Origin: Salinispora tropica CNB-440
GTDB taxonomy: Bacteria > Actinomycetota > Actinomycetes > Mycobacteriales > Micromonosporaceae
Assembly (NCBI RefSeq): GCF_000016425.1
Contig: NC_009380.1
Span: 4,282,144 to 4,346,143 of the forward strand
DNA length: 64,000 nucleotides
Direction of reading: 5' to 3'
In this document: piece by piece, positions 16,896-30,883 of the stretch
How positions within the stretch are numbered: position 1 is the first letter of the stretch
Layout: every line of letters starts with the position of its first letter
Made by a program: the position numbers and the translations under genes
Notes under the pieces: generated by a model
Told to the model about the DNA's origin: nothing
What the model saw: only the letters and a program-made list of their open reading frames with translations
The model's database searches: none

Positions 16896-17441
16896 TCAGC
16901 TCAACCGGGATTCCAGGAGGTCGAGGGCCGCGGGGACGGTCGCCACGACGGAGAGCAGCTCCAGCCCCGCCGGTTTCAGGAAGGTCTGCCCGGCAAGGTC
17001 ACCCAGCCAGTCGAGCAACGGGCGGTAGAAGCCGTCGGCGTCCACCAGCGTCATCGGCTTGCTGTGCAGCGTCAGCGTGGCGGTCGTCCAGACCTCGAAG
17101 AGCTCGTCCAGCGTGCCGAGGCCGCCGGGCAGGGCGAGGAAGGCATCCGACTTGTCGATCATGATCGTCTTACGATCGGCCATCGACTCGGTGATCAGCA
17201 GCTCGTCGGAGGCGAGGTCGGCGACCTCCAGATCGACCAGGGACTGCGGGATGATGCCCAGCGTGCGCCCGCCGGCGGCCCGCACGCCGGCCGCCACCGC
17301 CCCCATCATCCCGACCCGGCCACCACCGCTGACGAGCGTGTGACCACGACGGGCCAGCTCCGCGCCGGTCTCGGTGGCCAGGTCCAGGAAACGCTGGTCA
17401 AGCGTGCGGGAAGACGCACAGAAGACACAGATGGCCGCCAT
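16896..17441 (-). CDS. LOG-family protein (TIGR00730)
   Basis: Rossmann-fold protein of 181 residues with both signatures of the LOG family: SGGGRVGMMG near residue 40 and PGGLGTLDE near 108. LOG enzymes hydrolyse cytokinin riboside 5'-monophosphates or related nucleotides to base and ribose phosphate; in bacteria they were long misannotated as lysine decarboxylases. The ATG is 2 nt after the stop of the upstream LOG gene, with GGGG in reach, so the two are co-transcribed. Cytoplasmic. Confidence 0.9.
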   Translation of the reverse strand: MAAICVFCASSRTLDQRFLDLATETGAELARRGHTLVSGGGRVGMMGAVAAGVRAAGGRTLGIIPQSLVDLEVADLASDELLITESMADRKTIMIDKSDAFLALPGGLGTLDELFEVWTTATLTLHSKPMTLVDADGFYRPLLDWLGDLAGQTFLKPAGLELLSVVATVPAALDLLESRLS

Positions 17442-17443
17442 GG

Positions 17444-18295
17444 TCAGCCCCGACCCCCCTCGTCGGCAGCGGCCTGTCGCTCGGCCGCGGCGACGGCGAC
17501 GGACTCCTCGCGAACCGCCTCCTGCTCGGCGGAGAGCACCGCCTCCGTCTCGACGATGTGCCGCACCGCCGTCTTCACATCGTCGGTGAGGCAGATCAGC
17601 TCAAGATCAATCGCCCCGATCTTACCCTCGGCCGCCATCGTGTCCCGCAGCCAGTCGAGCAGGCCGCGCCAGTAGTCGGAGCCCATCAGCACCACCGGGA
17701 ACCGGGTCACCTTGCCGGTCTGCACCAGGGTGAGCGACTCGAACAGCTCGTCCATCGTGCCGAAACCGCCCGGAAGCACCACGAACGCCTGGGCGTACTT
17801 GACGAACATGGTCTTCCGCGCGAAGAAGTACCGAAAATCGATCGCCACGTCGACCCAGTCGTTGATGCCCTGCTCGAAGGGGAGCTCGATGCCCAGGCCG
17901 ACGGAGAGCCCGCCGGCCTCGCTGGCCCCCCGGTTGGCCGCCTGCATCACCCCCGGCCCCCCACCGGTGATGACCGCGTAGCCGGCCCGGGCCAGCGCTC
18001 CACCCAGTTCCTCGGCCATCCGGCACTCCGGGCTGTCCGGCAGGCTTCGCGCCGAACCGAAGACGCTCACCGCTGGCTGTAGGTCGGAGAGGGTGTCGAA
18101 GCCCTCGACAAACTCGGAGAGGATCCGCAGCGCCCGCCAGGCGTCCCGGGTCTTCCAGTCACTGCGCTGACGGGAGTCGAGCAGCCGCTGATCGGCGGTG
18201 CTGCCGCCGATCACTGACCGACGTGGTGCCCCAGCACCCCGGTGCTGGTCCCGCTGGGCCGCACCGGCCGCTTCCCGCCCGTTGCTCTCGCTCAT
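17444..18295 (-). CDS. LOG-family protein, long form (TIGR00730)
   Basis: Second LOG-type Rossmann protein, 283 residues. The core is at about residues 55-245: SVFGSARS, TGGGPGVMQAANRGA and PGGFGTMDELFE. About 50 charged residues precede the core and a 30-residue alanine/glutamate-rich helix follows it. Compared with its 181-residue neighbour it belongs to the longer subfamily seen next to dapE in actinobacteria. ATG at 18295 has no Shine-Dalgarno but sits 7 nt after TACGGT, consistent with a leaderless mRNA. It is 50 nt downstream of dapE on the same strand. Confidence 0.9.
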   Translation of the reverse strand: MSESNGREAAGAAQRDQHRGAGAPRRSVIGGSTADQRLLDSRQRSDWKTRDAWRALRILSEFVEGFDTLSDLQPAVSVFGSARSLPDSPECRMAEELGGALARAGYAVITGGGPGVMQAANRGASEAGGLSVGLGIELPFEQGINDWVDVAIDFRYFFARKTMFVKYAQAFVVLPGGFGTMDELFESLTLVQTGKVTRFPVVLMGSDYWRGLLDWLRDTMAAEGKIGAIDLELICLTDDVKTAVRHIVETEAVLSAEQEAVREESVAVAAAERQAAADEGGRG

Positions 18296-18302
18296 GCAGG
18301 CA

Positions 18303-18308
18303 ACCGTA
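18303..18308 (-). promoter_or_regulatory. -10 element for leaderless LOG gene
   Basis: TACGGT (TANNNT) is followed by exactly 7 nt and then the ATG at 18295, which places the transcription start at the start codon. Confidence 0.45.
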
Positions 18309-18345
18309 GTGGAGAGGTGCCGACGGGCGGGCGGAGCAGGGCCGT

Positions 18346-19419
18346 TCAGGCGGCCGAAAGCCAGCGACGCAGCACAGCCGCACCGTCGCGGATCTTCCCG
18401 ATCTCGACGTGCTCGTCCGGGTGGTGGGCGAAATTGGGGTCTCCCGGACCGAAGTTCAGCGCCGGGGTGCCCAAGGCCGCGAAGCGGGCGACATCCGTCC
18501 AGCCCAGCTTGCCGATCGGTGCCGTACCGACGGCGGCCAGAAACTCCTGCGCCGGCGCGGCCTCCAGCCCCGGCATCGCACCGGGCGCCAGGTCGGTGAT
18601 CGCCACCTCGAAGTCGGCGAACAGTTCCCGCACATGCGCCTCGGCCTGCTCCGGGGTACGGTCCGGCGCGAACCGGTAATTGACCTCGACCGTGCAGCGG
18701 TCGGGCACCACGTTGCCGGCGACCCCGCCGTTGATGCGCACCGCGTTCATCCCCTCCCGGTATTCGCAACCATCGACAGTCACCCGACGGGCCTCGTACG
18801 CCTCGAGCCGACGCAACACCTCCCCGGTGGCGTGGATCGCGTTGACGCCGCGCCAGGAGCGCGCCGAGTGGGCCCGTACGCCGCTGGTGGTGACGGTTGC
18901 CCGCATGGTGCCCTGGCAGCCCGCCTCCACGATCCCGTACGTCGGCTCCAGCAGCAGCGCGAAGTCGGCCGCGAGCCACTCCGGGTGTGCCTCGGAGACC
19001 AGGAAGAGACCGTTGTACGTCGACTCGATCTCCTCCGCCTCATAGAAGAAGTACGTCACGTCGTACCGTGGCTCGGCCAGGGTCACCGCGAGGTGCAACG
19101 CGTACGCGACACCGCTCTTCATGTCCGAGGTGCCGCAGCCGTACATCAGGTCGCCGCGCACCGTGGCGGGGAAGTTGTTGTTGATCGGGACCGTGTCGAG
19201 GTGGCCGGCGAGCACCACCCGCTGGTCCCGGCCGAGGCTGGTACGGGCCATCACGGTGTTGCCGTGCCGATAGGTGGTCAGGTGCGGCTCAACGCGCAGC
19301 ACATCCTCGACACAGTCCGCGATCGCCCTCTCGTTGCGGGAGACGGACTCGATATCGACCAGGGCGCGGGTCAGGGCCACCGGATCAGCGAGGACCTCGG
19401 GGGTCAGCGGGTTCTTCAT
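18346..19419 (-). CDS. dapE: Succinyl-diaminopimelate desuccinylase
   Basis: M20-family zinc hydrolase of 357 residues that converts N-succinyl-LL-diaminopimelate to LL-diaminopimelate and succinate, in lysine and peptidoglycan synthesis. Metal ligands: LAGHLDTVP (His and Asp near residue 74), GCGTSDMKSG (Asp), YEAEEIES (catalytic and ligand Glu pair), LLEPTYG (Glu) and NFAHHPDEHV (C-terminal His). The ATG at 19419 has no Shine-Dalgarno; TACCGT lies exactly 7 nt before it. It diverges from dapD across only 24 bp. Upstream in-frame sequence is antisense dapD and is not coding on this strand. Confidence 0.95.
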   Translation of the reverse strand: MKNPLTPEVLADPVALTRALVDIESVSRNERAIADCVEDVLRVEPHLTTYRHGNTVMARTSLGRDQRVVLAGHLDTVPINNNFPATVRGDLMYGCGTSDMKSGVAYALHLAVTLAEPRYDVTYFFYEAEEIESTYNGLFLVSEAHPEWLAADFALLLEPTYGIVEAGCQGTMRATVTTSGVRAHSARSWRGVNAIHATGEVLRRLEAYEARRVTVDGCEYREGMNAVRINGGVAGNVVPDRCTVEVNYRFAPDRTPEQAEAHVRELFADFEVAITDLAPGAMPGLEAAPAQEFLAAVGTAPIGKLGWTDVARFAALGTPALNFGPGDPNFAHHPDEHVEIGKIRDGAAVLRRWLSAA

Positions 19420-19426
19420 AAGCCGC

Positions 19427-19436
19427 ACGGTACCGT
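19427..19436. promoter_or_regulatory. Symmetric bidirectional -10 palindrome of dapE/dapD
   Basis: ACGGTACCGT is a perfect 10-bp palindrome centred between the two start codons. Read rightward it gives TACCGT, then 7 nt, then the dapD GTG at 19444. Read leftward it gives TACCGT, then 7 nt, then the dapE ATG at 19419. Neither gene has a Shine-Dalgarno. Two leaderless transcripts would thus start from overlapping -10 elements that cannot both be bound at once. Confidence 0.6.
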
Positions 19437-19443
19437 CACACAG

Positions 19444-20403
19444 GTGACGACTGCGCAGTCTGCCTGGGGCATCGGCCTGGCCACCGTAACCGCTGATGAC
19501 CAGGTACTCGACACCTGGTATCCGACCGGCAAGCTGGGCCTCGGCGAGCTGCCGCTGGTCCCGGGCGAGGATGAGGCGGATGTCCTCGACCTGCCGCCGG
19601 GAGCGGTCGGCGACCGGGCCCTGCCGGGCCTGCGGACCGTCCAGCTGGTGACCGTGCTCAGCTCGTTGGCCGACCCGATCAAGGACGCCGCGGACGCGTA
19701 CCTCCGGCTCCACCTGCTCTCGCACCGCCTGGTGCGGCCCAACGAGCTCAACCTCGACGGCATCTTCGGCAAACTGGCCAACGTCGCCTGGACCTCGGCC
19801 GGGCCCTGCCCCCCGGAGCGGGTGGACGAGCTGCGGGTCATCGAGCGGGCCGCCGGCCGGCACCTGACCATCTACGGGGTGGACAAGTTTCCCCGAATGA
19901 CCGACTACGTGGTCCCCTCCGGAGTTCGGATCGCGGACGCGGACCGAGTCCGGATCGGCGCCCACCTGGCCTCCGGTACGACCGTGATGCACGAGGGCTT
20001 CGTGAACTTCAACGCCGGCACGCTCGGTGCCTCCATGGTCGAGGGACGCATCGTGCAGGGCGTGGTGATCGGGGACGGCTCCGACATCGGTGGCGGCGCC
20101 TCGATCATGGGCACTCTCTCCGGGGGCGGCACCGAGAAGGTCCGCGTCGGCGAGCGGAGCCTGATCGGCGCGAACGCGGGCGTGGGCATCTCGCTCGGCG
20201 ATGACTGCGTGGTCGAGGCGGGCTGCTACATCACGGCCAGCTCCAAGCTCACGCTGCCGGACGGTCGGGTGGTGAAGGCCCGCGAACTGTCCGGCGTTGA
20301 CGGCCTGCTCTTCTGGCGCAACTCGGTCACCGGCGGGCTGGAGGCGAAGCCGCGCTCCGGGCAGGGCATCGCGCTGAACGCCGCGCTACACGCCAACGAC
20401 TGA
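19444..20403 (+). CDS. dapD: Tetrahydrodipicolinate N-succinyltransferase
   Basis: Actinobacterial DapD of 319 residues, a trimeric enzyme using succinyl-CoA to make N-succinyl-2-amino-6-ketopimelate. The C-terminal half is a left-handed beta-helix of hexapeptide repeats, from about VRIADADRVRIGAHLA to NAGVGISLGDDCVVEAG. MVEGRIVQGVVIGDGSDIGGG is characteristic of the mycobacterial type. GTG at 19444 is the only reasonable start and lies 7 nt after TACCGT. The stop is embedded in a four-fold CTGACCGG repeat and followed by a strong hairpin. It works with DapC and DapE, both in this window. Confidence 0.96.
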   Translation: MTTAQSAWGIGLATVTADDQVLDTWYPTGKLGLGELPLVPGEDEADVLDLPPGAVGDRALPGLRTVQLVTVLSSLADPIKDAADAYLRLHLLSHRLVRPNELNLDGIFGKLANVAWTSAGPCPPERVDELRVIERAAGRHLTIYGVDKFPRMTDYVVPSGVRIADADRVRIGAHLASGTTVMHEGFVNFNAGTLGASMVEGRIVQGVVIGDGSDIGGGASIMGTLSGGGTEKVRVGERSLIGANAGVGISLGDDCVVEAGCYITASSKLTLPDGRVVKARELSGVDGLLFWRNSVTGGLEAKPRSGQGIALNAALHAND

Positions 20404-29942: not shown

Positions 29943-30883
29943 CGCTGACCGGTCGCGCCGACCGGGGCCCGGTCGGCGCCGTCGGCGACCGGAGTCCGGT
30001 CCGAACCCTCGGCGACCGGAAGCCCGGCGAAGAGGTCGTCCTCCCACCCGTACGGGCCGAAGCCGGGGCCCTTGTCCCCGACCGCGAGGGTGTAGTACTC
30101 CACCCCCATGAACTCGCTGCCGAAGTTGCCGGCGATCGAGTACAGCCAGGAGTTGTCCGGAATCTGGGTGGCGTGTGCGCGCATCGCCGCCTCCTTGGCG
30201 ACGTGCTGCCCGGTCGCGTCAATCCGGGCGGCGATGCGCTCATCCGGCGTGCAGAACGGTAACTCCACCGCCTCCTGGATGCCCTCGAACGGGTTGTCCG
30301 ACGAGCCGGCGAAGTGGGTCATCCCGGCCTCCAGCACGCTTTGCGGCATCGCCGTCCAGTAGACCTTCGCCGGAGCAAACCCCTCGGCGGCGGCCAACTC
30401 GTGTGCCCGCATCGCCACCCGGTGGGCCTGGATGTGATCGGGATGGCCGTAGAACCCGTTGCCGTCATAGGTGATCAGGACCTGGGGTTGGAGCTCCCGC
30501 ATGACCTCCACCAGCTGCCCGGCGGCCACATCGAGGTCGGCCTGCCAGAAGGCGCGCGGGTGCTCGTTGGTGGCCAGACCCATCATCCCGGAGTCGCGAT
30601 AGCGGCCGGCGCCACCGAGGAACCGGTGGTCGGTGACCCCGAGCGCGCGGCAGGCCGCCGCCAGCTCCCCGATCCGGTAGCCGCCGAGCTGGTCGGCTTC
30701 GGCCGCGGCGAGCTGCGCCAGCTCCGGCACGTGCACCTCACCCTCCTCACCCAAGGTGCAGGTGACCAGCGTGACGTGGGCACCGGTGGCCGCGTAGTGG
30801 GCCATCGTCGCGCCGGTGCCGATGGCTTCGTCGTCGGGGTGCGCGTGGACCAGCAGGAGCCGGCGAGCGGGCAGTGTCGTCAC
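29939..30883 (-). CDS. mshB: Mycothiol biosynthesis deacetylase MshB
   Basis: Zinc-dependent LmbE-type deacetylase of 314 residues that removes acetate from GlcNAc-inositol, the second enzymatic step of mycothiol synthesis. The zinc and base motif is VHAHPDDEA (residues 12-20), and the second metal histidine is in [13 protein letters not shown]. The protein otherwise follows actinobacterial MshB up to [11 protein letters not shown]. The last 30 residues are low complexity, with [15 protein letters not shown]. Two in-frame GTGs are possible (30892 and 30883). The second gives [19 protein letters not shown], matching family N-termini, and lies 7 nt after TAGAGT. Confidence 0.94.

Follow-up and report, generated by a model that had tools for sequence, protein, structure and literature searches.

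How are two divergent genes transcribed when almost nothing lies between them? In the window, by which we mean the whole 64-kb stretch of DNA analysed here, dapE and dapD, both of the lysine/cell-wall pathway, face away from each other from start codons at 19419 and 19444, positions that are 25 apart and leave 24 bp between the codons. The middle of this gap is a 10-bp palindrome. Both genes are identified by NCBIfam models: dapD scores 457.4 bits against TIGR03535 (DapD_actino, cut-off 441.5) and dapE 522.9 bits against TIGR01900 (dapE-gram_pos, cut-off 304.2). The features of the locus are listed below. 

18346..19419, minus strand: dapE, succinyl-diaminopimelate desuccinylase, ATG at 19419 (TIGR01900 equivalog, above cut-off)
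19444..20403, plus strand: dapD, tetrahydrodipicolinate N-succinyltransferase, GTG at 19444 (TIGR03535 equivalog, above cut-off)
19427..19436, no strand: 10-bp palindrome ACGGTACCGT, read as two putative -10 hexamers overlapping by TA (sequence and conservation)
19427..19432, minus strand: putative dapE -10, TACCGT, 7 nt before the ATG (sequence and 169 of 172 pairs)
19431..19436, plus strand: putative dapD -10, TACCGT, 7 nt before the GTG (sequence and 126 of 172 pairs)
19431..19432, no strand: TA base pairs common to both putative -10 hexamers (sequence; same overlap in 32 of 123 pairs)
19428..19430, plus strand: CGG before the dapD -10 (sequence; matches the CGN context of Mycobacterium tuberculosis promoters, PMC3898074)
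19433..19435, minus strand: CGG before the dapE -10 (sequence; same CGN context on the other strand)
19420..19426, minus strand: 7-nt spacer from the dapE -10 to the ATG (sequence; spacing of 7 in 25 of 25 Micromonospora-group loci)
19437..19443, plus strand: 7-nt spacer from the dapD -10 to the GTG (sequence; a longer leader here in 17 of 25 Micromonospora-group loci)

From 19417 to 19446 the sequence reads CAT-AAGCCGC-ACGGTACCGT-CACACAG-GTG, and each strand carries CGG-TACCGT, then 7 nt, then a start codon (ATG for dapE, GTG for dapD). The sequence-only reading had described just this, with ACGGTACCGT between the divergent genes, TACCGT on each strand exactly 7 nt from the start and a gap of 24 bp, and we find the same. 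It had also held that neither gene has a Shine-Dalgarno motif; none is visible by eye upstream of the dapE ATG or the dapD GTG in the window. Hence both genes look like leaderless ones, with TANNNT 7 nt before an ATG or GTG start and no Shine-Dalgarno seen, and the two -10s on opposite strands have base pairs in common (19431-19432), as in bidirectional promoters. The palindrome has a single copy within the 64-kb window, where 0.04 would be expected (mean of 100 dinucleotide shuffles).

The 24-bp gap is very probably one minimal bidirectional promoter, with a shared -10 core serving two leaderless mRNAs. This promoter would be of the housekeeping (SigA/HrdB-like) type, and its 10-bp core would consist of two TANNNT -10 hexamers, one per strand, with the TA pair in common. 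RNA polymerase bound in one orientation would start dapE at its ATG, or within a couple of nucleotides of it, and polymerase in the opposite orientation would start dapD at its GTG. Both mRNAs would be leaderless and would need no Shine-Dalgarno motif. The geometry of the overlap suggests that two polymerases would be sterically exclusive, with one orientation occupied at a time. We infer the transcription starts, the sigma factor and the exclusion of polymerases from the sequence.

The evidence for this proposal comes mainly from relatives. We gathered 237 dapD loci from the family (150 genomes, 148 with a dapD match), the class (197 genomes, 157 with a match) and 80 named contigs. From the family search we took its 30 best loci, a choice biased towards near relatives, together with 60 by place; the class search contributed 27 new loci and 40 by place. 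The 100 loci taken by place were hand-picked to spread over genera and families, and the named loci are the best 80 of 587 encoding a relative. A 400-kb sample of the window's own genome stands outside the 237 loci. Twelve loci without a tblastn hit to dapD were restored through the dapD position given by the genome search. Sixty-three of the 237 loci could not be used: 52 gave no dapE hit, in 9 the genes were not divergent neighbours and 2 had neither a dapD nor a dapE hit. Among the 174 loci with dapE as the divergent neighbour, two artefacts (L248 and L257) were excluded because their computed gap was -18, leaving 172 usable actinobacterial pairs, which are related to one another and not independent. 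Three of them (L050, L123 and L182) lack TANNNT before dapE; they remain inside the 172 and stand outside the class counts, which concern 169 pairs. The intergenic sequence is identical in eight sets of two loci: in three of these, whose contigs are also equal in length, the same genome is present twice, from two collections (L009/L034, L040/L165 and L078/L194), and five further two-locus sets also share it.

A TANNNT hexamer precedes a candidate start by 6-8 nt for dapE in 169 of the 172 pairs, for dapD in 126 and for both genes in 123. Candidate starts near the aligned N terminus average 1.3 per dapD and 1.9 per dapE, and mock motifs were given equal freedom: the other 63 motifs of the form xxNNNx reach at most 22 pairs for both genes (the best being GTNNNG), and the seven other AT-only motifs reach none. 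In high-GC Actinobacteria, leaderless genes are marked by TANNNT no more than about 10 bp from the start (PMC3160421). TANNNT is also the -10 of M. tuberculosis, and 45% of the cases that PMC3898074 names have CGN in front of it. Among 49 distinct loci with a shared core, CGN precedes the dapD -10 in 26 and the dapE -10 in 17. C is the commonest base at position -1 in these loci, before 34 of the 49 dapD starts and 30 of the 49 dapE starts, which is the preference of mycobacterial transcription starts (PMC4633059). The window's own -1 bases are G for dapD and T for dapE, and this counts against the proposal. Taken together, the comparison supports a putative -10 shared by dapE and dapD.

The arrangement is also rare in the window's own genome. 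We scanned 464 kb (the 400-kb sample plus the window) for open reading frames of at least 80 codons with GC3 of at least 0.85, and found 58 leaderless-like starts and five divergent pairs with a gap of at most 150 bp. Overlapping TANNNT motifs 6-8 nt before both divergent starts occur once in the 464 kb, at dapE/dapD, a count that is not an independent rate because the window was chosen for this pair. The seven AT-only mock motifs give 19 to 37 starts in the same 464 kb and no divergent pair within 150 bp. A second divergent pair in the window, starting at 30883 (minus strand) and 30978 (plus strand), has TANNNT 7 nt before both starts of open reading frames of 314 and 710 codons, with a gap of 94 and no overlap; we take the minus-strand protein starting at 30883 to resemble a PIG-L/MshB-type deacetylase.

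A weakness of the proposal is the -35 region. No sigma-70 type pair with a TTGACA-like -35 at 16-19 bp from the -10 was found between 19300 and 19560 (0 sites). Across the 49 distinct shared loci, the mean best -35 score lies below that of displaced controls for both genes (2.0 vs. 2.73 for dapD, 2.29 vs. 2.49 for dapE), and TTG stands at -35 in none of the 49 in either direction, the displaced controls themselves giving only 0 to 5. The literature describes both situations: no conserved -35 is reported for mycobacterial promoters (PMC3898074), and a -35 is reported for leaderless genes of Streptomyces coelicolor (PMC4895711). The missing -35 counts against the promoter reading.

How the two hexamers meet varies among relatives in a restricted way. 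They overlap in 56 pairs, and only as ANNNTANNNT, the window's form, with an offset of +4 (32 of 123 pairs), or as TANNNTA, with an offset of -1 (24 of 123). The remaining 67 of 123 have offsets from 7 to 427, with at most 4 pairs at any one value. The gap between start codons is 22-26 bp at offset +4 and 17-20 bp at offset -1. Both forms occur inside the family (22 pairs at +4 and 11 at -1) and outside it (10 and 13); examples of +4 beyond the family come from Saccharothrix (L051), Frankiales/Frankiaceae (L065, L078), Geodermatophilaceae (L067) and a Mycobacterium (L107). By our reasoning, +4 and -1 need the fewest A/T letters, four, of the conceivable overlaps, and this may be why only these two are seen in GC-rich genomes. 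The same genes, in the same orientation and with TANNNT near both starts, have hexamers without overlap in 67 of the 169 classified pairs, and therefore a shared core is not required. In this sample, separate hexamers are found in 3 of 3 named divergent Actinoplanes, 9 of 10 named Micrococcales and 9 of 11 named Mycobacteriales. A metagenome-assembled genome titled Bifidobacterium breve (L066) has dapD with a 17-bp shared -10 gap; its taxon label may be wrong.

Some relatives seem to have moved dapD away from the core without losing the core itself. A distance of 72-136 nt separates dapD from dapE in 17 of the 25 Micromonospora-group loci. In these 17, dapD has no leaderless hexamer and always a Shine-Dalgarno-like motif, yet the shared core retains both of its skeletons. 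More generally, 38 of the 46 pairs whose dapD lacks its own leaderless hexamer retain the overlap, as against 6 of the 67 whose dapD has a separate one (37 of 45 vs. 6 of 67 once identical intergenic sequences are merged). A Shine-Dalgarno-like motif precedes dapD in 41 of those 46 pairs. We read this as the shared core being able to drive dapD with or without a leader, the plus-strand -10 presumably decaying once dapD is given another promoter. Ancestry complicates the matter, since 34 of the 38 overlap-keeping pairs come from one family. Eight of the 46 pairs lack both the hexamer and the overlap. A test on 8 independent pairs was informative in few of them (mean 2.9 differing the same way, 0.2 the opposite way and 5.0 not differing; median p 0.25). 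The association between overlap retention and the absence of dapD's own hexamer is thus suggestive, and not significant after phylogenetic pairing.

Leaders show further variation. Outside the family, L245, L179, L084 and L090 keep a TANNNTA core without a leaderless hexamer before dapD, 3 of the 4 with a Shine-Dalgarno-like motif; these are the putative leader form in the -1 geometry. In L017 three tandem repeat units make up the dapD leader. Each unit ends in AAAGGCAAGCACC and is followed by GTG, which places three copies of a Shine-Dalgarno-like motif plus GTG in a row. We also considered the leader as a repeat family of the window's own genome: of 18 leaders (the 17 of the Micromonospora group and L017), two matched the 464 kb, with 4 hits of 18-20 nt between them, which lends this idea no support.

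What is the overlap for? One possibility, in line with the sequence-only reading's view of mutually exclusive polymerase sites as a simple means of linking the two genes, keeps the anatomy described above and adds that the shared -10 is selected, competition between polymerases coupling or quieting the expression of dapE and dapD. Steric exclusion would follow from the overlap, and at bidirectional promoters of Escherichia coli strong activation one way can repress the other direction, while constrained transcription is less variable, so that interference can cut cell-to-cell variation (PMC12825309). In addition, the dapE tree (172 rows) calls for a minimum of 16 changes in overlap and 20 in geometry, and the latter count means that the overlap was repeatedly regained or lost. 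Among the 40 loci in which both genes are nearly full, the class changes at least 6 times and the exact palindrome at least 3. Yet such repeated change fits neutral turnover equally well, 67 of the 169 pairs do with separate hexamers, and basal activity was too low for appreciable competition at all five E. coli promoters tested (PMC12825309). We therefore regard selection for coupling as unlikely. We are just as doubtful of the stronger view that actinobacteria widely and actively maintain the junction as a double-leaderless bidirectional promoter, in which one -10 core is the whole regulatory region, shifts between 18- and 23-bp geometries with its function intact and lets polymerase competition balance the enzymes or lower noise. 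The simplest view is that the overlap would be a matter of economy: a GC-rich genome can arrive at it, give it up or extend it, and does not need it as a means of coupling the genes.

A bidirectional promoter with a shared -10 has clear precedents. Like the bidirectional (pseudo-symmetrical) promoters of Warman and Grainger, the dapE/dapD gap would give divergent transcripts from -10s that share base pairs (PMC12825309, PMC10268837), a likeness drawn here from sequence and conservation alone. Transcription start sites at bidirectional promoters lie 18, 10 and 23 bp apart (PMC12825309), and in the 18-bp class position -11 is paired with -7 (PMC10268837). We derive that, with RNA starting some 6-7 nt past each -10, the +4 form would fall in the 23-bp class and the -1 form in the 18-bp one. 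The distance in the window is 25 by start codons and would be 23, among the published classes (PMC12825309), only if each RNA begins 1 nt upstream. The differences are that no -35 is seen on either side, that both overlap classes occur among relatives, and that the core would be the entire intergenic region, because both dapE and dapD products look leaderless. The likeness to actinobacterial leaderless genes is equally close (same TANNNT, ATG or GTG start and no Shine-Dalgarno; PMC3160421, PMC3898074, PMC4633059, PMC6448022), except that here two such genes would share one box. Amino-acid biosynthesis is reportedly enriched among the leaderless genes of Mycobacterium smegmatis. In M. tuberculosis closely juxtaposed divergent promoters are described as common, and prpD and the divergent regulator gene Rv1129c are both shown as leaderless (PMC3898074); doubly leaderless divergence is therefore not in itself new.

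TANNNT boxes are thus already known, and so are actinobacterial divergent genes without leaders and bidirectional promoters with such spacings. In the open-licence literature searched, we found no paper on a shared dapE/dapD promoter and no precedent for a double-leaderless shared -10 traced over many genera at one gene pair; the main text of transcription start site papers on Mycobacterium, Corynebacterium and Streptomyces names neither dapE nor dapD. The pair offers a small, readable case of a bidirectional promoter that can be traced through many genera, and in which the same genes occur with -10s that overlap in two geometries, are separated, or have a leader on one side only. This makes testable how such promoters originate, whether selection acts on the overlap and what a -10 can do without a -35 or a leader.

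An alternative to a shared core is that only dapE uses the -10, dapD starting elsewhere and the mirrored hexamer being due to chance or to an extended -10 of dapE. The CGG on one strand could serve such an extended -10, which speaks against a shared core, and CGN before the dapE -10 would explain 9 of the 10 bases of the palindrome. The near universality of TANNNT before dapE (169 of 172), which dapD does not match (126 of 172), points the same way, as do 6 of 40 family loci that lack both dapD's own hexamer and the overlap. Against this stands the tenth base, the T at 19436, whose equivalents are kept in 34 of those 40 family loci and in 4 of 24 with a separate dapD hexamer; the commonest base at this position in the 24 is G (71%), and in overlapping loci it is T by definition of the class. 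Furthermore, there are 56 pairs, including 23 from beyond the family, whose dapD start lies 6-8 nt past the mirrored hexamer. We consider a dapE-only -10 improbable, and a core used in both directions the better account.

The sequence-only reading gave weight to the palindrome as such, and here the relatives tell a different story. It had proposed one palindrome serving as both -10s: the two TANNNT skeletons stand in 25 of 25 Micromonospora-group loci, and symmetry as the key property does not, since seven loci of the group read ACGGTACCTT, which breaks the symmetry and spares both -10s. Retention of the palindrome in relatives that keep the gene pair, which it had expected, therefore fails. 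Its 7-nt spacing likewise survives on one side, in 25 of 25 loci for dapE, with leaderless placement of dapD in only 8 of 25. The exact palindrome is present in 18 of the 25 loci (the window's genome included, and two sets of two rows having identical gaps) and in 35 of 97 Micromonosporaceae loci. On a tree of dapE and dapD together, the window's genome is the first branch of this 25-row group, the other 24 rows having a support of 84. Core letters vary among ACGGTACCGT, ACGCTACCGT, AATCTAGGCT, ACCCTAAGGT, TAGCCTA and TACCGTA while skeletons and spacings stay constant, and equivalent positions in other loci hold ACGCTACCGT, AATCTAGGCT, ACCCTAAGGT, AGGCTAGCGT and others. The conserved property is the pair of putative -10 skeletons, not symmetry. 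This supports the view that evolution has treated the palindrome as a pair of -10 hexamers set back to back with a common TA, each apparently placed for a leaderless start.

It follows that a dimeric diaminopimelate-pathway regulator using the palindrome as its operator, with promoter overlap secondary, is very improbable: although the palindrome is perfect, lies symmetrically between two pathway genes and is exact in those 35 family loci, we reject this reading because both -10 skeletons outlast the symmetry (the dyad is not conserved in the group or the family), other lineages put different letters on the ANNNTANNNT or TANNNTA skeleton, the window has a single copy, and 10 bp is short for an operator. 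More broadly, an intergenic palindrome in GC-rich actinobacteria may be two back-to-back TANNNT boxes and not an operator. As a separate observation on the neighbourhood, two adjacent proteins of the LOG/TIGR00730 family (16896-17441 and 17444-18310, minus strand) lie on the dapE strand just past the 3' end of that gene.
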